Shown here one piece after another: positions 54,736 to 64,000 of a stretch of DNA of 64,000 nucleotides. Each line of letters begins with the position of its first letter. The stretch's first letter is position 1. Under the pieces are notes generated by a model, which ran no database searches, had not been told where the DNA came from, and worked only from the letters and a program-made list of their open reading frames with translations. The stretch comes from Frankia alni ACN14a (GTDB lineage: Bacteria > Actinomycetota > Actinomycetes > Frankiales > Frankiaceae). The stretch lies in assembly GCF_000058485.1 (NCBI RefSeq), contig NC_008278.1, positions 1,420,962-1,484,961 on the forward strand, written 5' to 3'. Made by a program: the position numbers and the translations under genes.

Positions 54736-55209
54736 TTACAGGCGCAGGGGGCGGATCGGGGCGGCGATCAGGTGCGGCTGCGACTGCCAGTCGACGCCCG
54801 CCACGTCGATGTAGAGCTCGATCTCGTTGCCGTCCGGGTCGAGGATGTAGAGGCTGTGGGTGATCGTGTGATCCGACGCCCCGACGATGTCGACGCCAGC
54901 CTCCCGGATGCGGGCGAGGACCTCGCGCAACTCGTCGTCGGTGTCGCCGACCTTCAGCCCGAAGTGGTAGAGCCCGATCCGCCGGCCGGCCGGCACCGCC
55001 GCCGCGTCCTCGCCGACCTCGATGAGCAGCAGTTCGTGATGCGTGCGGCCGGCGGAGAAGCCGGCCGCGGGCACCCGCAGCGGACCGTCGGCGGAGGCCG
55101 CCGGGTCCGGGAACACCTGCCGCCAGCCGAGGACGTCCCGGTAGAACGCGACCGAACGTTCGATGTTGCGGACGTAGAGGACGAGATGTCCCAGTTCCTT
55201 GATCTCCAC
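54736..55209 (-). CDS. VOC-family (glyoxalase-like) protein
   Basis: 157 residues from GTG 55209, with GGGGAG 6 nt upstream; longer frames upstream lack coding character. Two betaalphabetabetabeta modules: VEIKELGHLVLYVRNIERSVAFYRDVLGW (first module, metal His9), HHELLLIEVGED, GLYHFGLKVGDTDDELREVL and YILDPDGNEIELYID (metal Glu). This matches metal-dependent VOC enzymes such as dioxygenases or glyoxalases; the substrate is not identifiable. It lies antisense to the ssrA promoter region. Confidence 0.88.
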   Translation of the reverse strand: MEIKELGHLVLYVRNIERSVAFYRDVLGWRQVFPDPAASADGPLRVPAAGFSAGRTHHELLLIEVGEDAAAVPAGRRIGLYHFGLKVGDTDDELREVLARIREAGVDIVGASDHTITHSLYILDPDGNEIELYIDVAGVDWQSQPHLIAAPIRPLRL

Positions 55210-55426
55210 AGTGGTCTCCCCGGGGCTGGCGGACGGGATGCCGTTGTACGTACAACTACCACGCGGGGCCCGGCATGCCCGCCTTCGCTCCTCGATTCCG
55301 CGTCTGTCGGGCCGGGCGCCGACGCCCTCCGCTGCCGACGCGGACCGGGTCCGCCGGCCGCGGCGCATCGCTCCGATCGCCCGCGTCCTGCGGTAGCATG
55401 AGACGGTAGGCAAGACAACCGTACCT

Positions 55427-55796
55427 GGGGGTGATCGGTTTCGACTTCGGACGTCGAGGCAGGGGAAGCGGGCCGAGGATGAACGGTTATCTCGTTAACG
55501 ATCCGTTCAAAAAAATAGCTGCCAACAAGACGCAGCCTGTTACCCCCCTGTACGCCCTCGCGGCGTAGGGACTAGGTAACCGTCAGCCTGGGAGTGCCTC
55601 CGGCCCAGGATCTGACGTCGCTAGGAGGATCACCGACTGACCCGGTCGCGGGGCCAGTTGGAAAATCAAACAGCGACTGAGCCTACGTCGGCTTGCCTGT
55701 GGGTCCGACGGGGCTGAGAAACAAGTAGCAGGCTCCGCCCGGAGAAGCCCTGTGTCGGTGCCGGAGGACGCGGGTTCGATTCCCGCCACCTCCACC
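55427..55796 (+). ncRNA. ssrA: tmRNA (transfer-messenger RNA)
   Basis: The 5' end GGGGGTG (55427-55433), followed by ATCGGTTTCGAC, pairs with CACCTCC (55787-55793) next to the T-arm GGTTCGATTCC; CC follows the discriminator A, and the final A of CCA is not encoded. The tag reading frame runs 55518-55568: AANKTQPVTPLYALAA, then TAG. The tag ends in the hydrophobic ALAA recognised by ClpXP-type proteases. With SmpB it rescues stalled ribosomes. An apparent antisense gene (55583-55795, MEVAGIEPASS) is a known tmRNA artefact. Confidence 0.95.
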
Positions 55797-56262
55797 CCGC
55801 AGCGTGACGAACCGCCTGACCTGCAGAAACAGGTTGGTTCGCACGTTGCGGACGTGCTCGTGCCCGCCGAAACTGCAGGTCGGCGGGCCGGGCAGGTGGT
55901 TCGAGCCTCCTTTGGCTCTGTAGCAGTCGACTCCTGTCGGTAGTCGCCGCGGCTGGGATGGGTCAGCGTGCGGGTCGTTCGCGGCCCTCGCTGCGAGAGT
56001 TGGCAGGTCCGTGGTCGGGCTCCTGCTTACCGGAGCTCGTCCGCACGGCCCCGACCTGCGCCGCTGGGCGGTGCAGTCGGCGAATATCGCCCGGATGCTG
56101 GACCAGCGGAGGTTCGTCGCGGACGAGCTGGAGGAGCCGCGACGACGCTGGGACACCTGACGGCCCGAGGCCAGGCTCGATGCCGCGCCGCCGACAGCCC
56201 CTCCCGCTAGTCGGGTGGAGGCGACGGCGGGGCGGCCTAGGGGACGGGCGCGGGGAACCGAG
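55797..56262. other. Spacer between tmRNA and the accessory island
   Basis: 466 bp. Except for the small frame at 56011-56160 no gene is supported. Short inverted elements around CTGCAG (55820-55880) occur. The 3' end of tmRNA is a frequent site for island integration; no second copy of the 3' segment was seen within the window. Confidence 0.5.
56011..56160 (+). CDS. Possible small hypothetical protein
   Basis: 49 residues from GTG 56011 (LLLTGARPHGPDLRRW, ANIARMLDQRRFVADELEEP). Codon third positions are G/C-rich and the sequence has coding character, but no good ribosome site and no recognised family. It may be the 3' remnant of a longer gene truncated at the island edge. Confidence 0.3.
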   Translation: MVGLLLTGARPHGPDLRRWAVQSANIARMLDQRRFVADELEEPRRRWDT

Positions 56263-56940
56263 ATGACCCATCCGCCGATCGACGTCCGGCGCGAGGGTCA
56301 CCTGTATCGCCCTCACGCGGAGACAGTACGAATCGGGCCCAGACGCCCACGGACTGTCGATACCGTGTGGGCGAAATTGGTTGCGCGGGCGAGCGATAGA
56401 CAGTCGGGGGCGTCGGTGGCGATGAAGGTACGGGTGGGCAAGTATGCCTACCTGTGGGAGGGCGCCGAGCCGCTCGTCCCGGGCGACCGCGTGCTCCTGC
56501 CCGAGAACTGGCTCAGTCGTACGATCCACGGCCCCGGGCCCTTCGAGGACACCGTGACCGCCGTCGGAAGCGACTACGACGGGCCGATGTCGCGGGTCAT
56601 TGCCAAGATCGGACGGGATCCGGACTGGAGACCGCCGGAGCCGGACACACTACCCGCGCCCCGCGTCTCCCTCGTCCACGAAGGCCGGTACCAGCAGGCG
56701 CTGGCCGAATACGACCGCCAGGTCGAGGAGTGGCGTCGGCGTGCCGGTGGCACGGCTTCCGATCCGGTGACCGTCGGGCGGGCCAGGCTCGTCACGTGCC
56801 CGAAGTGCGGTGCCCCTGAATCAAGCCCGTGTACGGATGCTGCGAGGCCCCGGAAGGCGAATCATCAGGAGCGGCTCCGGCGGTTCCGTGCGTGGATGCA
56901 GGAGACCCATCCCCGGTACCCTCGGCGCGAGACGCTCTGA
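56263..56940 (+). CDS. Hypothetical protein with C-terminal actinobacterial zinc-finger
   Basis: 225 residues from ATG 56263 (GAACCGAG upstream). An N-terminal region (VRVGKYAYLWEGAEPLVPGDRVLLPENW) resembles a small beta-barrel and is followed by a helical linker (HEGRYQQALAEYDRQVEEWRRR). The C-terminal zinc finger CPKCGAPESSPC ... NHQERLRRF matches the common actinobacterial CPxC...PC...H..R element. Probably nucleic-acid associated; function unknown. First well-supported gene after the tmRNA. Confidence 0.65.
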   Translation: MTHPPIDVRREGHLYRPHAETVRIGPRRPRTVDTVWAKLVARASDRQSGASVAMKVRVGKYAYLWEGAEPLVPGDRVLLPENWLSRTIHGPGPFEDTVTAVGSDYDGPMSRVIAKIGRDPDWRPPEPDTLPAPRVSLVHEGRYQQALAEYDRQVEEWRRRAGGTASDPVTVGRARLVTCPKCGAPESSPCTDAARPRKANHQERLRRFRAWMQETHPRYPRRETL

Positions 56941-57045
56941 TCATGTCGGTGTGACCGGTCCGGCCGGGGCGCGCCAGCGGGCGGGCACCGAGGGCGCGAT
57001 GTCGCTGAGGGCGATGCGGAACGTCAGCCGGAGCGGCGGCCGGGC

Positions 57046-57294
57046 CTACGGGTGTTCCTCCGCGTTGGTGGCGGCTGCGGTGGTGTGCTCCCAGTGCAGG
57101 ATCAGCTCGGCGAGCGCCTCGACTGCTCTTCGCCGTTCCTCGGCCGTCATGGGTATGGTCTCGACCCGCTCGATGACCATGTGGCGGGCGACGGGTTGTC
57201 GTCGTGTTTTCCGGGACGGTTCCGCGCCAGCTTGGTTGCCGGCTTCCGTGTTCTCCGTGCGGGGATCGTCCTGGGCGTGGTCGGGACCGGCCAT
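57046..57294 (-). CDS. Small hypothetical protein
   Basis: 82 residues from ATG 57294, about 11 nt after an AAGGGGG site. The N-terminal half is disordered; the C-terminal ~40 residues (VIERVETIPMTAEERRRAVEALAELILHWEHTT) form two amphipathic helices. No recognised family. It could be longer if an earlier start is used. Confidence 0.4.
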   Translation of the reverse strand: MAGPDHAQDDPRTENTEAGNQAGAEPSRKTRRQPVARHMVIERVETIPMTAEERRRAVEALAELILHWEHTTAAATNAEEHP

Positions 57295-57652
57295 CGGTAG
57301 GGTGCCCCCTTGCGGCTCTCTGGCCTGTATCGGCTGTCGGGGCACTCTATTGCTGCTGGGAGCGGTTCCTGGGCGACCACGGCGTCGCCCTTCGTCGCCT
57401 CCGATGGCTTGTTCTGGTGCCGGGTTGTCCCAGCGCTCGCGCGGTTCGTCCGCGTTTGCCTGTTCCCGGTCCGGGTAAGCGCGTTTCCGGTTCGGCCGGT
57501 TGGGGGTCGCGGTTGTCGAGACCCACCAGCTGTCTCCGCTGGCTGTTGGCGTATGAGGTCGATCGCCCGACAGGCTGGTTGATCGGGTGAGATCATGATG
57601 GGTCGTGTGGAGGAGCCGGAACTCACGCGGTTGTGAGTCAGAAGATCGCGGG
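57295..57652. other. Intergenic region of the island
   Basis: 358 bp without a supported gene. The leftward frame from 57690 has no coding character here. Confidence 0.4.
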
Positions 57653-58054
57653 ATGACGGTGCGCGAGTTCTTCGCGGCGCTTGCCTTCATCGCGCGGGAC
57701 GCGTGGAGCCCTACGCCCCGGTCAGATCTCTACTTGCACTGTGATGTCTGCGGTGGTCCGACCCCGCACTCCAGCTATCGGCGGATCATCTCCGCGACCG
57801 AGGTGAATCCGACGCTCGTTGCCGCGCCCCCGGAGCCGGTCTGCGCGGTGTGCCGTGACGCGCATCCGCGCACTCTCGGCGACGAACCGCCTTGCGACAC
57901 GGCCATGGTGTGTATCGGCCAGCGACGGCGCCGCTGGCGCGCGGGGAGGTCCCGGCGGCCGTGTGGCGCGCGATTTGAGGTTCCCGCGTCCGCGCCGACC
58001 GTGATCTGCGCGTGGTGCAGCACGCAGCAGGACGGACCGGTCAGGCAGCAATGA
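57653..58054 (+). CDS. Hypothetical Cys-rich protein (zinc-ribbon pairs)
   Basis: 133 residues from ATG 57653. An N-terminal helix (REFFAALAFIARDAW) is followed by three Cys pairs, LHCDVCGGPT, VCAVCRDAH and VICAWCSTQQ, plus a single CGARF. These probably bind two zinc ions. No family recognised. It is upstream of the EACC1-like gene and may be part of its locus. Confidence 0.55.
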   Translation: MTVREFFAALAFIARDAWSPTPRSDLYLHCDVCGGPTPHSSYRRIISATEVNPTLVAAPPEPVCAVCRDAHPRTLGDEPPCDTAMVCIGQRRRRWRAGRSRRPCGARFEVPASAPTVICAWCSTQQDGPVRQQ

Positions 58055-58199
58055 CCACGTCGCGGGACTGACATCAACACTCCCAGGAATCCGAAGATCT
58101 TGGTGCTGTCACAGCCGACCCAAGTGACGCCGCTTGGTCACTCTTCGCGTAGGGCGCGGTAAGATCTCAATCGGTGTGGGCTGGCCGTCGGGGGGCGTC

Positions 58200-58669
58200 G
58201 TGGATCTGATCGTGCAGATGTCCGGTGGCACGTCGGGGGATGATCTGGGTCGTTTGCGGGGCTGGTTGTTGGACGAGCCGCTGCTGCGAGGCAGGGTCCG
58301 GCTACAACCCGCGGCGGCGCCGCCGGGCGCGATGCCCGGTGGAGTGATCGAGGCGCTGGTGGTCCTGGCGGCCGGTGGTGGGCGGTGGCGACGGCGGCCC
58401 GGGTGCGTACCGCGGGCAGTGTGCTGATCACCTGGTTGAAGGGCCGGCGGGGTGATGTGCAGGCGACGGTGACCACCGCGCAGGGCGCGTCGGTGTCGCT
58501 GTCCGCGTCGCTGTCCGCGACAAACGTGCGCAGCCTGACGAGCGCGGAGGTCAGCGCCCTGCTCGACAAGCTGGGCGTCGTGGCCACGGGCGAGTCGGAG
58601 CAGACCGGTGAGGGCGAGGGCTCCGGTCCGCCGGCTGAGCCGGACGGATCGTCACAGGCGGCGGGCTGA
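58200..58669 (+). pseudogene. EACC1-like (effector-associated constant component) gene interrupted by a frameshift
   Basis: Two overlapping frames together encode one ~155-residue protein. The first, from GTG 58200, reads VDLIVQMSGGTSGDDLGRLRGWLLDEPLLRGRVRL and PPGAMPGGVIEALVVLAAGGG. The continuation, in the -1 frame from about 58382, reads AVATAARVRTAGSVLITWLKGRRGDVQATVTTAQGASV, then an acidic tail. This layout matches the EACC1 family, the small constant partner in caspase/trypsin-effector conflict systems. The shift falls in a G-rich run (GGTGGTGGGCGG, 58374-58385): either a real inactivating deletion, a sequencing error, or ribosomal slippage. The family assignment rests on motif resemblance only. 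Confidence 0.6.
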
Positions 58670-58680
58670 GGCGAGGGGCC

Positions 58681-59256
58681 GTGGTGTTCTCGGATCTCGC
58701 CGGGCCGGGAAGCCGGATTCTGCTGATCGGTTCCGGCCGGCATGTGACCGGTTCTCTCCTGCCGGACCTGCCGTCGGTAGCCAGCACTCTTACCGATCTC
58801 GCCGAGGTGCTGGCCGGCCGGTGTGGTATGCCCGCCGGGCAGGTCACGACGGTGATGGATCCGGCGAACCCGATCGAGCTTGCCAATGCGATCGAGCGGG
58901 CGGCGGAGCAGGCCGGCGACGTGTTCCTGCTCTACTACGCCGGCCACGGCGTTCTCGATGCCGAGGGGGCGTTGCACCTCGCGACCCAGGCAACCATCGA
59001 CCTGGGTCGTGGCCGGGTGGGGCATCAGGCGCTGGCTTTTGCGGACGTCAATGACCTGCTGCGGGAACACTGCCAGGCCGCCCGAGTTGTGGCCGTCCTT
59101 GATGCCTGTCACGCCGGGCGGGCTTCCACCCCCTCGGCGGGAAGTCTGCATGCCGCGTTCGAGCGTGCCGGGCAGGGGAGCTGCCTGCTGGCCGCGGCCT
59201 CGCGGGACGAGCATGCCCTGGCGCCGGTCGGAGCGGTGCCCACGAGGCTTCATTGA
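58681..59256 (+). CDS. Caspase-like (p20) cysteine protease, C-terminally truncated
   Basis: 191 residues from GTG 58681. The caspase fold is complete through the catalytic dyad: RILLIGSGRHV, SVASTLTDLAEVL, VFLLYYAGHGVLD (His89) and VVAVLDACHAGRAS (Cys143). The frame stops at residue 191 (PVGAVPTRLH), where relatives in EACC1-linked systems continue into GAxHTAFTG and a large sensor/NTPase region. It lies 11 bp downstream of the EACC1-like gene. Such proteases are proposed to kill the infected cell. Its truncation suggests loss of the C-terminal part, possibly by replacement with the next gene. Confidence 0.8.
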   Translation: MVFSDLAGPGSRILLIGSGRHVTGSLLPDLPSVASTLTDLAEVLAGRCGMPAGQVTTVMDPANPIELANAIERAAEQAGDVFLLYYAGHGVLDAEGALHLATQATIDLGRGRVGHQALAFADVNDLLREHCQAARVVAVLDACHAGRASTPSAGSLHAAFERAGQGSCLLAAASRDEHALAPVGAVPTRLH

Positions 59257-59291
59257 GTAGTTCAAGTCGAAACAAAGGTGACGTCGAGACC

Positions 59292-60995
59292 ATGGATTGC
59301 GAGCTCATTCTTCCTCCGCCTCCCCTTGATTCGGGAGAAGGAACGGATGTCGATCGCCTGAGGATGCTCCAATGCCAGCGGGGACGGTGGGCTGAAGAAT
59401 GGGCCCACTATCGCGTGCGCCTCGCCGCTGACCTCGCTCGGATCGAGCAGCGCTCTCGCGACCGCACGAGGTACTGGGATGCCTGGCGAGATCGCGCGAT
59501 CGAGTCCTGGAGGACGCGGCACGATTTTCGGCGTACAAGTGTCGCCGACTTCCCGATGCTGCGTGAGCAATGGCATCGAGATAATCCTCCGCCCTGGACG
59601 ATGCCCGCAGGATTTGCCAACAGGCAGGAATCTGGTCGTCCAAGATGGGTCTGCCCGCTCGATGATCACCATACTTGGGAGGTCTGGCCAAAAGATCGCA
59701 TTTCACGCGGCACACGATGCCCCGCGTGTCAGAAGAAGGGCGTGATTGCCGATGTTGCGCTTCTACTGGACCAGTGGGACGACGAGGCTTCTCCAGATGA
59801 GGTGACCTTGGGTTCGAATCGCGAGGTTTCCTGGAAACACGAGACGTGGACTGTCGTGCCCGAGACCGGAGAATGGAGGAAGGTGACGCACCATTGGCGC
59901 ACCGAACCCAAGGTCCGGACGGGCCAGCTCGACGCCTGCCTCGTGTGCGCTGGACATCAAGTGGACGAGACGACGAGTCTCAAGACCTGGTTCCCGACTC
60001 TGGCTAGAGAACTGGTCAGCTCGGTCGACGCGGCGACCTTGTCACCCGGTAGCCATGATGGCGGAACTGCGCGATATGAGTGGCGATGCCTCACGAATGA
60101 GAAACATCCGAACTGGCGGTCGACTATCCTCAACCGGGTTAACGACACGGGCTGTCCACGGTGTCGTCGCCGAGGTGTCTCCGACCGTCAAGCGCGTATC
60201 GCCGCCGAAATCGATAGCCTCGGCGCCCTGATTCCACCGGACGACCGGCTAGGTGGTCTCCCTGGTGGCGTACCCGACCTCTGTTCGTATCAGCTCGACA
60301 TCCCGTCCGACGTCCGAGAGCGCTATCAGTGGAGATACTCAAAGATCGAAATCGACATGCTCATCGATGCGGGTGGACGACGGATAGCAGTGGAATATGA
60401 CGGCGCCGCCTACCACGCGAGCCGGTTCCGTGATGATGATGAGATCGAACGGCGAAAAGACGGTATTCTGCGAGCGCTCGGTCTACCCGTAATTCGGGTG
60501 CGGGAGCAGGGGCTGACTACGCCGGTTCGTAAGGGCCTGTGGGTGATCGAGATCAATCGGGACGAACCCTGGAGTGTAGCGGTCAAGATCTTCGACACCG
60601 TGAGGAAGATCACTGGATGGATGCCTACGGGCTTGCGCTCTTACCGCCTAGGCCAGGCTAACCAGGGGGAAGTCAACGCGGGAAATTTTCTGGCCGCGTA
60701 CCGGGAACCGCGGGAGAGGGGGCCTCGTCCGCCACGGTCAGTCTCTGTTCCGCGACCGCGTCGGCCGCGCTCGACCATTCCTGCTGGCACCAAGATTGGA
60801 CATCTCACAGTACGGTCGGATGCCATTTTTGACAAGAATTCTCCCCCGCGTTCAACCCAACGATGGAATTATAAAGTTGACTGCGCCTGTGGCGCAACCA
60901 ATGTTTCCAAGACGCACGCGGATCTCACGCGAAACGATGGGAGGCGGGCCAAATTCTGCTCTCGTCAATGCCCCCTCATTACGGCGAGCGTCTGA
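59292..60995 (+). CDS. Zinc-ribbon / PD-(D/E)XK nuclease-like protein
   Basis: 567 residues from ATG 59292; an in-frame TTG at 59253 overlaps the caspase stop by 4 nt. N-terminal helices (~1-100), then zinc-ribbon units of the PF14311-like type: RWVCPLDDHHTWEVWP plus CPACQKKG, CLVCAGHQV plus WRCLTNEKHPNW, CPRCRRRG. A restriction-endonuclease-like core follows at ~325-410: KIEIDMLIDAGGRRIAVEYDGAAYHA, RRKDGILRALGLPVIRVREQG, with Asp and the Glu-x-Asp-Gly motif as likely metal ligands, as in DUF559/Vsr-like nucleases. The C-terminal ~60 residues (CACGATNVSK ... FCSRQCP) form another zinc-binding module. AT content is visibly higher than in the rest of the window. Confidence 0.75.
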   Translation: MDCELILPPPPLDSGEGTDVDRLRMLQCQRGRWAEEWAHYRVRLAADLARIEQRSRDRTRYWDAWRDRAIESWRTRHDFRRTSVADFPMLREQWHRDNPPPWTMPAGFANRQESGRPRWVCPLDDHHTWEVWPKDRISRGTRCPACQKKGVIADVALLLDQWDDEASPDEVTLGSNREVSWKHETWTVVPETGEWRKVTHHWRTEPKVRTGQLDACLVCAGHQVDETTSLKTWFPTLARELVSSVDAATLSPGSHDGGTARYEWRCLTNEKHPNWRSTILNRVNDTGCPRCRRRGVSDRQARIAAEIDSLGALIPPDDRLGGLPGGVPDLCSYQLDIPSDVRERYQWRYSKIEIDMLIDAGGRRIAVEYDGAAYHASRFRDDDEIERRKDGILRALGLPVIRVREQGLTTPVRKGLWVIEINRDEPWSVAVKIFDTVRKITGWMPTGLRSYRLGQANQGEVNAGNFLAAYREPRERGPRPPRSVSVPRPRRPRSTIPAGTKIGHLTVRSDAIFDKNSPPRSTQRWNYKVDCACGATNVSKTHADLTRNDGRRAKFCSRQCPLITASV

Positions 60996-61185
60996 AGGAT
61001 GAGCGATCCACCAAAGCGAAGTGGTCGAGGCACCTCTACCGTTTCCGACCGAGTTCATCCCGGCGTTCACCAGAGATCAAATATAGTCCCATCTGATTCT
61101 AGTCCATAACGCAGCAACTGGGGTCACGGAGCGACTGAAGCCAAAGATTCCGCGAGTTGTTGAGGCGTAGCCCATCCGTGATGAC

Positions 61186-61908
61186 GTGGCCTTCTTTGAC
61201 ACGGTGCGCCAGCAGATCGCGAAGCTGGAAGCCGCGGACCGGGAGGGCACGACACCGCCGCCCTGGACACGGCCGTCCGGCAGATCATCAGCCAGCACAT
61301 GACCGGCACCGGCGTCATCGACATCTTCGCCGAGGCCGGCCTGGGCAAGCCCGGCGTCTCCGTGATCGACGGCGAGTTCCGCAAGAGGTTCGAGACCTCC
61401 GACCGCCAGCACCTACAGCTGGAGGCAGTCCGGCGGCTCATCGCCAACGAGGTCAGGCTCATCAGCCGGCGCAACATCGCCGCGGGTCGCAAGTTCTCCG
61501 AGAGCTCAACGACGCGCTCAACCGGTACCAGAACCGGGCGATTATCTCGTCCCAGGTAATCGCCGCGCTCGTCGAACTCGCCAAAGCGATCCAGGAGCAG
61601 CGGAAGCGCGGCGAGGACACCGGGCTTTCCGAGAACGAGCTGGCCTTCTACGACGCGCTGGCGAACAACGAGTCCGCCCGTGACGTCATGCAGGACGAGA
61701 CGATGCGGAAGATTGCGCACGAGCCGACCGGCATCGTCCGCCGCGACGCGAAGACGGACTGGCAGGTCAAGGCGTCGGTGCGGGCCAAGCTCCGCACCAG
61801 CGTCAAGCACCTTCTACTCCTCACGGGTACCCACTCGACCAGGAACCCGGCGCGACCGAGCTGATCATTCGTCAGGCCGAACTCTTCGCCGAGGAGGAAG
61901 TGGCGTAG
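61186..61908 (+). pseudogene. Decayed 3' part of type I restriction subunit hsdR
   Basis: Consecutive fragments of the HsdR C-terminal region appear in different frames: DVAFFDTVRQQIAKLEAADREG (61189-), ALDTAVRQIISQHMTGTGVIDIFAEAG (61265-), then LNDALNRYQNRAIISSQVIAALVELAKAI with LSENELAFYDALANNESARDVM and LRTSVKHLLL (61504-), and finally ATELIIRQAELFAEEEVA to TAG at 61908. At least three frameshifts separate them and the N-terminal motor/nuclease domains are missing. No hsdM or hsdS is present. It is a remnant of a restriction system. Confidence 0.8.
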
Positions 61909-61935
61909 TCCGGATCGGATGAAGGCCGGCTCATG

Positions 61936-61970
61936 CCGTAGTCCTGATTGGTACAATCGGACGACTACGG
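61936..61970. terminator. Long inverted repeat after the hsdR remnant
   Basis: Arms CCGTAGTC (61936-61943) and GACTACGG (61963-61970) enclose inner arms GATTG (61946-61950) and CAATC (61953-61957). It lies between the plus-strand hsdR remnant and the minus-strand CBASS-like operon, so it could terminate either; it might also be an old recombination site. Confidence 0.5.
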
Positions 61971-62145
61971 GTGCTGCAAGTGGGCCATCTTGTGCGCTGT
62001 CCTTCCCGTGTCGTGCTGGGCATCGGTCGTCAAAACCTGACCACGCTCCCGTCTGGCGGGCGCGCGGCTCGATACCCTCACTGCCCGTAACGCGACAGGC
62101 TGTCTCGCAGTCGCCAAGTGCCGTCGCCGACCGAAAGATTCCGTC

Positions 62146-62790
62146 TCATCTGGCCCACCAAGGGGTTCGCGCATCCAGATGGGCACGCACCGCTTTCATG
62201 AATGACATTTCAAACGGCGTTAGAGATCTGAGATCTATTATGGCTGTCGGGATAATCATGTCCGCGTCTGATGTTGTTGCCGGCCCCCTCCAAGCATCTT
62301 TCATCGCGGTCCCCGCGATCTCGCGGGCCTGCTGAACGAGGTCGGCGTACGCGGCTCCGACGGTTTCGGATTCCGCCGCCGTCCAGGCAACGTGGTAGGC
62401 GAGCCTGGCTTGAATATCCCGAAGCGCCTCGGAAAGCCGAACCCTCTCGTCCGGCGCTGCATCGGTCCGCCTGCGGCGGATGGCGTAAGGGAACTCCTTG
62501 TAGGCCGCGTACGTCGCGAATGCTTCAGCGAACGCTGTGCGCAGGCGGTTGCACTGCTCTTCCCGGCTGCGTCGATGGGCAAGCCAGATGTTGATCGCCG
62601 CCGCGATTATGCCAGCGAGAAATGCGCCGGAGAGCACTGCGGTCGCCAGGAGATCCGGTCCGCCGGTTGTCCCTCCTTGTGCGCCCGGGGTGGGTGCGGG
62701 CGTCCGTGTCACCGTAGCGGTAGTCGTGGCGCTGGTTTGAATCGACGGCAATGGTGCAACGGCGGATCCAGACGTAGTGGCGGTTGGCAT
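62146..62790 (-). CDS. Single-pass membrane protein of the CBASS-like operon (candidate effector)
   Basis: 214 residues, ATG with AGAGAAAG upstream. A Thr/Pro-rich N-terminus (~1-45) is followed by one membrane helix (LLATAVLSGAFLAGIIAAAINIWL, ~46-70) and a basic border (AHRRSREEQ), then a ~140-residue helical cytoplasmic domain (LRTAFAEAFATYAAYKEFPYA, LSEALRDIQARLAYHVAWTAAES, YADLVQQAREIAGTAMKDAW, LTPFEMSFMKAVRAHL). It lies 47 nt downstream of the E2-like gene on the same strand. In CBASS loci membrane proteins commonly act as pore-forming effectors; that role is inferred here. Confidence 0.65.
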   Translation of the reverse strand: MPTATTSGSAVAPLPSIQTSATTTATVTRTPAPTPGAQGGTTGGPDLLATAVLSGAFLAGIIAAAINIWLAHRRSREEQCNRLRTAFAEAFATYAAYKEFPYAIRRRRTDAAPDERVRLSEALRDIQARLAYHVAWTAAESETVGAAYADLVQQAREIAGTAMKDAWRGPATTSDADMIIPTAIIDLRSLTPFEMSFMKAVRAHLDARTPWWAR

Positions 62791-62837
62791 TGGCGCTTTC
62801 TCTGTTCATTGTTGATATTGGCTGACAGTCGTCGATG

Positions 62838-63272
62838 TCAGGCATGGATGACCTCGCACCCCGGCCATTCTCCTGTAAGGCGCCACCATTCTTCGCGAAG
62901 CAAGTGAGCGACGATGTAGCCGAGAAGGGCAGGCGGGCCGTCGGAACGGCTCCAGCGTCGTTCTATAGGATCGGCGGGGTACCACATGCACAGCGCGCCG
63001 CCAGAATAGCGATGTGGCGAGTCGGATGGTCCGTCCGTGTAGACGTGCGGGGACTCGGGAGACGCCAGGCTGAAGACGATCGTGATTGTCTGGACAGGCA
63101 GGTCCGCGACGTCGAGCCTGATCTCGACGGCGAAGCCACCTCTGTATCGCCGGAAGGGAAACCGCACCTCCCGGATCTGAAGGCCACAGTCGGCGAGCCG
63201 GCGCAGGAACAGGATGCGGGGCGCCGGCCTGGCGAACCAGGCCGGCTCCCGCCATGGTGCTCGGCGGGTCAC
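62838..63272 (-). CDS. E2-like (ubiquitin-conjugating fold) protein of an E2-only CBASS-like system
   Basis: 144 residues from GTG 63272, overlapping the stop of the CD-NTase by 4 nt (GTGA). The central part is E2-like: VRFPFRRYRGGFAVEIRLDV, ITIVFSLASPESPHVYTDG, then the active-site region SPHRYSGGALCMWYPADPI with Cys95, and a C-terminal helical part (LLGYIVAHLLREEWWRLTG, EWPGCEV). The H-x6-C spacing (PHRYSGGALC) and following W-Y-P are as in prokaryotic E2 enzymes. In E2-only (type II short) CBASS the Cys forms a thioester with the CD-NTase and conjugates it to a target, activating it. Assignment is by motif and context. Confidence 0.65.
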   Translation of the reverse strand: MTRRAPWREPAWFARPAPRILFLRRLADCGLQIREVRFPFRRYRGGFAVEIRLDVADLPVQTITIVFSLASPESPHVYTDGPSDSPHRYSGGALCMWYPADPIERRWSRSDGPPALLGYIVAHLLREEWWRLTGEWPGCEVIHA

Positions 63273-64000
63273 GCGCTGTGGAGCGGGGTACCGTAGGCGC
63301 GGGTAGGCCGGACGAGTGCCGGCCTACCCGAGAGGCCCAATGCGGCGGTCGAGACTGGGTTTGGTCGCCTCAACATCGCTGCCTTGCCCGCCAGCCCGGA
63401 CGGTGTCGGGTCTTCCAGATACTTCCAGTAGACCCGCGAGAGCACCGAGAGCACCGCTTCGCGGTCGTCGTCGTGTTCGAGGGCCTCGCTGACGGCATCG
63501 GCCGCTGTGCGCAGTCGCCGGGCGGCGATCGAGCGGTCGATCAGGGGCTTCACATTGGGCGATACCCCTGCCGGATCCTTCGTCGCGTATCCCGCCTCCA
63601 GCCGGGTCGATGCCTTGTCCAGCACGGAGAAGAGGGCGGTCGGGAGCCCCATCCCTTCCGTGATGAATTCCCATGCCCAGACGGACAAGTTGTGGGATGA
63701 GAACCCGACGGTGGTGTACTGCCGGTTCCATGCCTTGAGCAGACGGATGGTGCGGCGACGGGTCTGGGCGCGCGACTTGCCGCCAGACGTGAACAGCGTA
63801 GCGTGCTGCTCGGGGTCCGAGGCTTCCCACTTGCTCTTCTTGAGGTCGGGGATCCAAAGCCCATTGCCGTCGCGGCGGGTGAGCGCCATGACGAGGTCGA
63901 TGGTCGGGTCCTGACCGTCCACCGGACGGACGAAGTAGATCTTCGGTCCTCGCCTCGACGTGCAGCAACGGGCCTTCGGGTAGACGTTTCGGATACTCGG
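63269..64000 (-). CDS. CD-NTase (SMODS/cGAS-like nucleotidyltransferase), N-terminus beyond window
   Basis: The frame is open to the right edge; ~243 residues are visible. Read inward from base ~64000 it shows LPEGPLLHVEARTEDLL, RPVDGQDPTIDLVMALTRRDG (third catalytic Asp region), LWIPDLKKSKWEASDPEQH, RRRTIRLLKAWNRQYTTVG, SSHNLSVWAWEFITEGMG and LIDRSIAARRLRTAADAV. These fit the C-terminal half of SMODS-type CD-NTases, which make cyclic oligonucleotide second messengers on phage infection. The GS motif and first two metal Asp are outside the window and cannot be checked. It overlaps the E2-like gene, so the order is CD-NTase, E2, membrane protein. Confidence 0.75.
   Translation of the reverse strand, partial: PSIRNVYPKARCCTSRRGPKIYFVRPVDGQDPTIDLVMALTRRDGNGLWIPDLKKSKWEASDPEQHATLFTSGGKSRAQTRRRTIRLLKAWNRQYTTVGFSSHNLSVWAWEFITEGMGLPTALFSVLDKASTRLEAGYATKDPAGVSPNVKPLIDRSIAARRLRTAADAVSEALEHDDDREAVLSVLSRVYWKYLEDPTPSGLAGKAAMLRRPNPVSTAALGLSGRPALVRPTRAYGTPLHSA

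Follow-up and report, generated by a model that had tools for sequence, protein, structure and literature searches.

A predicted zinc-array nuclease gene in a defence island of Frankia alni ACN14a with likeness to free-standing homing endonucleases

Described zinc-array nucleases and the protein from Frankia

Four phage group II intron proteins carrying three to five CapR/DUF4379/DUF723-related domains together with an EDxHD/Vsr-related nuclease are HEGs according to a recent study (PMC12350094; Nucleic Acids Res 2025), whose profiles find thousands of matches in UniProt, many of them unannotated. Related zinc fingers occur in 200 of 229 T5orf172 HEGs, as stated in PMC10448857, where the third zinc domain is called DUF4397 in the text and DUF4379 in a figure legend. 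HEGs are also found as free-standing genes, and I-Bth0305I is a phage-type EDxHD enzyme, according to PMC3943268; PMC3710099 reports MTES_1575-type Vsr REases in proteins of conflict systems.

The gene analysed here is contained in the window, i.e., the whole stretch of 64,000 nucleotides from F. alni ACN14a under study, and its host chromosome comprises 7,497,934 bases in one contig. Its product of 567 amino acids (aa) carries a zinc array ahead of a nuclease, as do the EDxHD/Vsr-like zinc-array homing endonucleases, and it shares with the phage HEGs of PMC12350094 several zinc domains of about 60 aa that are followed by an EDxHD/Vsr-like nuclease. Unlike the HEGs described there, the window gene has no detected intron and is located in a 7.5 Mb actinobacterial chromosome; furthermore, a C-terminal Cys module follows its nuclease, and Lsr2-like domains are present in relatives. 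Residence in a self-splicing intron, a feature of the described phage members, was accordingly not observed for this gene. The T5orf172 phage HEGs of PMC10448857 resemble it by a zinc-finger array joined to a nuclease and by genes positioned at boundaries of genetic exchange, but their nuclease is T5orf172 and not PD-(D/E)XK. In contrast to the MTES_1575 conflict proteins of PMC3710099, the 567-aa protein has no Pfam match to a HEPN, transglutaminase or DUF3320-like domain. The architecture is already known in print; new are its actinobacterial setting without a detectable intron and the movement of its relatives as single genes.

The gene is more reminiscent of the self-spreading homing nucleases known from phages than of an established immune gene, and we predict, with modest confidence, that it is free-standing and specifies a site-specific DNA endonuclease of the homing type. 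An unnamed protein would thereby be transferred from the vague label of a defence nuclease to a testable class, the homing-type nucleases with zinc-array DNA reading, and its existence suggests that homing-type zinc-array genes occur outside introns and phages in actinobacteria. The gene and the parts of its product are arranged as follows:

59292..60995, + strand: zinc-array nuclease gene; open reading frame of 567 aa, with ATG at 59292 and a stop ending at 60995
59346..59513, + strand: long N-terminal helix, aa 19-74 (AlphaFold; block pLDDT 71-90 from residue 21)
59643..59741, + strand: zinc unit 1, aa 118-150 (DUF4379 stretch; limits by eye)
59826..59960, + strand: zinc unit 2, aa 179-223, degenerate (sequence and alignment; limits by eye)
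60027..60173, + strand: zinc unit 3, aa 246-294 (best DUF4379 stretch, PF14311 profile 14-56)
60174..60614, + strand: PD-(D/E)XK Vsr/EDxHD-like nuclease core, aa 295-441 (D355, E368-x-D370, H375, K389, R404)
60783..60977, + strand: C-terminal Cys module, aa 498-562 (sequence and alignment)

TTG 59253 is an alternative start of the gene, and homologues of the protein in other actinobacteria are 25-39% identical to it. The modelled N-terminal helix is possibly a spacer or a dimerisation part. According to Pfam, the protein is a member of DUF4379 (PF14311; 59.2 bits against a gathering cut-off of 24.5, E 4.7e-16), with three passing stretches representing repeated units, of which Pfam placed only the best one (aa 246-294). 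This bears out the zinc-ribbon array proposed in the original prediction. The ligand-like residues, assigned by eye, are C121/H126-127/C143/C146 in unit 1, where a weak match to CapR is found as well (aa 119-146; 16.4 bits, cut-off 24.2; E 0.011), H200-201/C216/C219 in unit 2, whose first Cys is missing ('WKH' without Cys), and C266/H272/C288/C291 in unit 3. The further zinc module that had been proposed for the C-terminus is recognizable, from the sequence only, as a putative Cys-rich module with the ligand-like residues C531-x-C533/C556/C560; it has no Pfam match, and AlphaFold assigns a pLDDT <50 to the region 470-567. No NCBIfam family was found for the protein at E <= 0.01.

The 567-aa protein ends directly after its Cys module and has no Pfam match to Lsr2. 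Among its relatives, which we designate by the L numbers of their loci, a C-x-C ... C-G-C module at the position of the C-terminal module is followed by Lsr2-like domains; the Lsr2 DNA-binding domain scores above the Pfam cut-off in L005, L029 and L031 and below it in L028, and the relative from L007 has two helicase-associated stretches (Pfam). Lsr2 is a xenogeneic silencer, and a nuclease equipped with the DNA-reading domain of such a silencer would be unusual; no title or abstract opening among the papers listed in our searches announces an Lsr2-nuclease fusion.

Sequence and predicted fold of the nuclease core

The 'KIEIDMLID ... VEYDG' block of the protein comprises D355 and E368-x-D370. 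These residues and the AlphaFold topology agree with the PD-(D/E)XK core that had been proposed from the sequence. Likeness to DUF559/Vsr-type enzymes had been proposed as well, and here the Vsr part was supported and the DUF559 part was not. The best Pfam match for the nuclease is REase_MTES_1575 (PF18741), a Vsr-like REase (aa 344-406, E 3e-6), whose cut-off the protein misses with 27.7 versus 38.2 bits, and I-Bth0305I and Vsr are recovered in the comparisons given below. DUF559 (PF04480), by contrast, has no match to the 567-aa protein at E <= 1, and it scores 19.0 bits in the relative from L007 and 16.8 bits in one protein from L006, both below the cut-off of 20.6.

In the close-family alignment, the eight rows of which include four near-identical Streptomyces copies, D355, E368, D370, G371, H375, R380, D381, K389 and R404 are invariant (8/8). 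A wider alignment of six rows, to which three distant proteins (one from L007 and two from L006) were added, retains D, E-x-D-G, H and K in all of them (6/6), so that the metal-ligand residues are kept in homologues. With respect to the E-D-x-H-D motif, D355, E368-x-D370 and H375 are present, and the candidates for the helix Glu are, by alignment, E306, which is invariant in the close family, and the position of Q300, where both L006 proteins have a Glu in the wider alignment.

The AlphaFold model calculated from the eight-sequence close-family alignment (mean pLDDT 65.9, pTM 0.48) orders the core as helix 298-308, strands 333-336, 351-354/356-360 and 363-370, helix 383-395, and strand 400-405. 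This modelled order of elements is that expected for the PD-(D/E)XK topology, and a nuclease fold, the check that had been suggested for this protein, is thus predicted. A model derived from the single sequence (pLDDT 35.4) was set aside.

When searched against the PDB, the profile of the wider alignment matched five sequences; the sole nuclease among them is I-Bth0305I (3r3p; E 0.0028), and the other four are DUF4379/mS66 mitoribosomal proteins. The 567-aa protein alone retrieved only a nitrogenase chain from the PDB with phmmer (E 0.41). In structural comparisons with VIA-align, two Bax1 entries lead (Z 8.8 and 8.2), 3r3p is third (Z 8.0, 2.8 Å, 97 residues of a 98-residue chain) and Vsr (1vsr) attains Z 6.0, with a Z near 8 being, according to the tool, frequent among models that have no clear match; matches to TIR, SPARTA and receiver folds were regarded as background. 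Foldseek, run with the whole model, gave a single match below E 0.001, from a mitoribosomal assembly of a trypanosome, followed by Bax1 complexes, and neither 3r3p nor 1vsr is among the best 50 matches listed. As a structural score of this height may stem from background (Z about 8), and as 3r3p is absent from these 50 matches, it is the sequence match that carries weight. Sequence and fold jointly point to the EDxHD homing endonuclease I-Bth0305I as the nearest solved enzyme; its catalytic domain was compared on its own. The DNA-binding part of I-Bth0305I differs from a zinc array. Collectively, three partly dependent lines (conservation, model and comparison) back the predicted nuclease nature, and the combination of a zinc-array reader with a nuclease is a well-supported prediction.

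Relatives and their movement

Relatives of the zinc-array nuclease look rare. They were found in three of the 393 genomes of the class, own genome included, where no more than three candidates were scored in each genome, and a six-frame search for PF14311 at E <= 1e-8 found it in three of 35 genomes of the order, the window's own genome falling below that limit. Searches of genome contigs yielded seven loci from 65 pattern matches, and 19 of 72,556 plasmid records matched, one of which covers at least 80% of the query. None of 50,697 phage records matched the whole protein at E 1e-5, and the nuclease segment alone had one match in these records (E 0.4); on viral contigs, neither the 77 pattern stretches of one search nor the four of a second were confirmed. 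PHROG 681 'endonuclease' matches the 567-aa protein (E 3.2e-5) and its relatives from L007 and L028, not that from L005.

No neighbour within 5 kb is common to more than two of 19 loci, i.e., 18 loci plus the window, with L032 excluded as a near copy of L031, L028 taken as the G190 record of L002, and L034 taken as the G323 record of L003. Neighbouring frames are shared in pairs only, mainly by L031/L033, which have a common flank, and also by L106/L109, L107/L110, L028/L030 (RibD_C), L028/L108, L034/L112 and L030/L033. A DUF6083 gene is located directly upstream of the nuclease gene in both L033 (8985-9737) and L112 (3800-4489), the contexts of which are otherwise different. In Streptosporangium pseudovulgare (L034:9947-11179), a nuclease copy that lacks the N-terminal zinc units runs into a response-regulator/LuxR-like end, as judged by eye, and reads like a broken or fused copy.

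The evidence for movement stems from Streptomyces relatives that are 25-28% identical to the 567-aa window protein, not from the window gene itself. The copies in L005, L030, L031/L032 and L033 exhibit 93.7-95.2% DNA identity over 2.03-2.07 kb. Where the flanks of a pair are unrelated, this identity extends from 20-50 bp ahead of the ATG to 9-46 bp past the stop; the right flank and some 91 bp in front of the ATG are common to L031, L032 and L033, and the left flank of L031 is in addition found in full in L032. Because such similar copies are found in unrelated surroundings and their identity ends near the open reading frame, the gene seems to move almost alone. Values of dN/dS are 0.19-0.35 over 10 pairs of Streptomyces copies, and by part of the protein the mean is lowest in the nuclease (0.0175/0.130). 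The Streptomyces gene is thus maintained at the protein level while it relocates nearly on its own.

Searches in 13 genomes of the genus revealed no clean empty allele with both flanks joined. Of 296 genomes of the class, 40 contain matches to the flanks of L030, with no clean joined-flank allele among two candidates scored per genome. In the genus to which G153 belongs, taken as Streptomyces, a 4.1 kb query from L031 matches 126 of 392 genomes, again with no clean joined-flank allele among the matches listed, two candidates being scored per genome. In these listed matches, the helicase gene of the right flank accounts for nearly all, the left flank for two (G476, G543), and a part of the nuclease gene for one (G496). 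Some single-contig genomes (e.g., G440, G478, G575) have matches to this UvrD-like helicase gene (L031:11602-13092) close to both of their ends, and the Streptomyces nuclease copies may therefore be subtelomeric. With respect to introns, the tmRNA is the only element above the Rfam gathering score in the window region 55000-64000, and six related loci have no Rfam match at gathering.

A homing-type endonuclease is in our view the most likely product of the window gene because of its architecture, its nearest solved relative, the lack of a recurring partner, and the solo movement of its relatives. An extended DNA target would be bound by the treble-clef zinc units, arranged in tandem, together with the Cys module of the C-terminus, and it would then be cut by the Vsr/EDxHD-like PD-(D/E)XK domain, with D355 and E368/D370 holding the metal; when the break is repaired, the nuclease gene would be copied at the cut site, or neighbouring DNA would be joined in there. 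We infer both that the target is long and specific and that cutting drives the movement. In favour of homing, the gene separates two truncated genes, and a low-GC tract starts at 59250. However, ectopic movement would explain near-identical copies at unrelated sites more readily than allelic homing of the classical kind, and with no joined-flank empty allele among the genomes searched, homing is a prediction. The lack of a detected intron fits a free-standing gene but removes a usual hallmark of homing. The absence of the Cys from zinc unit 2 and of a phage record matching the whole protein also speaks against homing, as does the local context, which favours defence, and the two truncated flanking genes may reflect general decay of the island.

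A more far-reaching proposal, which we put forward as speculative and unlikely to hold, is that of an actinobacterial clade of intron-less, single-gene mobile nucleases that jump among unrelated chromosomal and plasmid sites and take hardly any flanking DNA along, whose targets are set by swappable DNA-binding tails (the Cys module, Lsr2-type domains, and helicase-associated domains) and whose breaks give rise to recombination junctions by which adjacent defence genes are shuffled and truncated. If such nucleases cut where they insert, they could help to explain mosaic junctions in defence islands.

The island in Frankia and alternative readings

The gene had been predicted to lie within a defence island, and its surroundings support this location:

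55427..55796, + strand: tmRNA gene (Rfam), possible island insertion site
58681..59256, + strand: 3'-truncated caspase gene; homology ends at about 59232-59244 (versus four long homologues)
61129..61893, + strand: 5'-truncated hsdR remnant in three frames; residues 801-1056 of a 1059-aa homologue (PF11867)
62146-62790, - strand: CBASS 1TM effector (PADLOC)
62838-63272, - strand: CBASS E2 (PADLOC)
from 63269, - strand: CBASS cyclase, 341 aa (PADLOC); its frame ends at 64294, beyond the window

On the 3' side of the tmRNA gene, an EACC1/caspase pair, the zinc-array nuclease gene, the hsdR remnant and the CBASS operon follow each other in this order; a CapP-like gene continues the operon beyond the window, to about 65485 (PADLOC), and two frames after it, to 67756, have no PADLOC match at E <= 1e-5. 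A second copy of the 24-base 3' end of the tmRNA was not found within 80 kb, allowing up to three mismatches. Of the 13 other matches in the family, 12 have the caspase homology in open frames of 1315-1978 codons (186 in G268), and the rest of the four caspase homologues was not found within 80 kb taken from 55427. As the caspase homology stops at 59232-59244 and the hsdR remnant starts at 61129, the nuclease gene fills the gap between two truncated genes. Its GC content is 60.2%, versus 72.6% for bases 1-55400 of the window. In a two-state segmentation of 57501-63000, the low-GC tract has its best right end at 62926; this end is not delimited by the segmentation, and 100-base bins climb from 0.55 to 0.71 at 61200. 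Nothing convincing was found as terminal repeats at the ends of the gene.

A second location in the same genome (5426651-5428307) carries the window pieces 55762-55986 and 56617-58047 next to each other, at 93-94% identity; a further copy is partly present at 6911853-6912329, and pieces also occur in other genomes of the genus. The pieces may represent a repeated mobile element whose window copy has additional DNA separating the two.

The setting between the caspase and hsdR remnants and next to CBASS lends itself to a different reading, the main rival of the homing one although in our view rather unlikely, namely that of a single-gene anti-phage or anti-plasmid nuclease whose zinc array recognizes invading DNA and whose Vsr-like domain destroys it. 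The use of MTES_1575-type Vsr REases in conflict-system proteins (PMC3710099) is in line with this reading, as is the joining of DUF4379 units to helicase and methyltransferase domains in one protein; moreover, the Lsr2 domain of L005, L029 and L031 could aim at AT-rich foreign DNA. A divergent neighbour of the L005 copy, a KAP NTPase, matches the PADLOC PifA model (E 7.4e-62), and it is one of two out of 10 chosen neighbours of relatives with PADLOC matches (raw count), the other being a UvrD helicase with GajB models. Near more distant relatives, annotated HEPN and PIN domain proteins (L006), a PIN protein (L007), and, at a distance of about 4 kb, a RAMP CRISPR-associated protein (L111) are present; an N-6 DNA methylase gene is found about 7.6 kb from the L005 copy. 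Defence genes hence occur near some copies of the nuclease, without consistency, and neither a recurring partner nor a recurring methyltransferase neighbour was found in the loci examined. According to Pfam, 20 chosen neighbours comprise, besides nSTAND NTPases (one below the cut-off), a UvrD helicase, HTH proteins, DUF6083 (two) and several proteins without a family, such non-defence proteins as a transposase domain protein, RibD_C (two), PadR, two sigma factors and a FAD oxidoreductase. The 567-aa protein itself lacks the Lsr2 domain of its relatives, and PADLOC-DB 2.0.0 has no family for it at E <= 1. The step from location to defence function, taken in the original prediction, is consequently not borne out, also because the architecture is published as a homing-endonuclease group; as a whole, that interpretation is partly supported.

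The lost Cys of zinc unit 2, the broken flanking genes, and the broken appearance of two of 10 close-family places (L004, which is split over two frames, and L034, which lacks the N-terminal part and the usual tail) would fit a decayed or inactive passenger that arrived with other mobile debris and no longer works. An intact frame of 567 codons with a complete D/ExD/H/K set renders this distinctly improbable, as does purifying selection, observed among the Streptomyces copies, i.e., in relatives and not in the window gene. A Vsr- or Bax1-like repair or structure-specific nuclease acting on mismatches or forks, to which the structural matches led by Bax1 and including Vsr might point, is very improbable given that the 567-aa protein has no match to the Pfam Vsr family at E <= 1 and that the distribution in the class is patchy.

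A plasmid of Rhodococcus sp. WAY2 (L113:4860-8897) encodes a 1346-aa protein with six DUF4379 stretches, a ResIII/SNF2-type helicase and a methyltransferase. This protein is possibly a single-chain restriction-like system that uses the same DUF4379 zinc reader.
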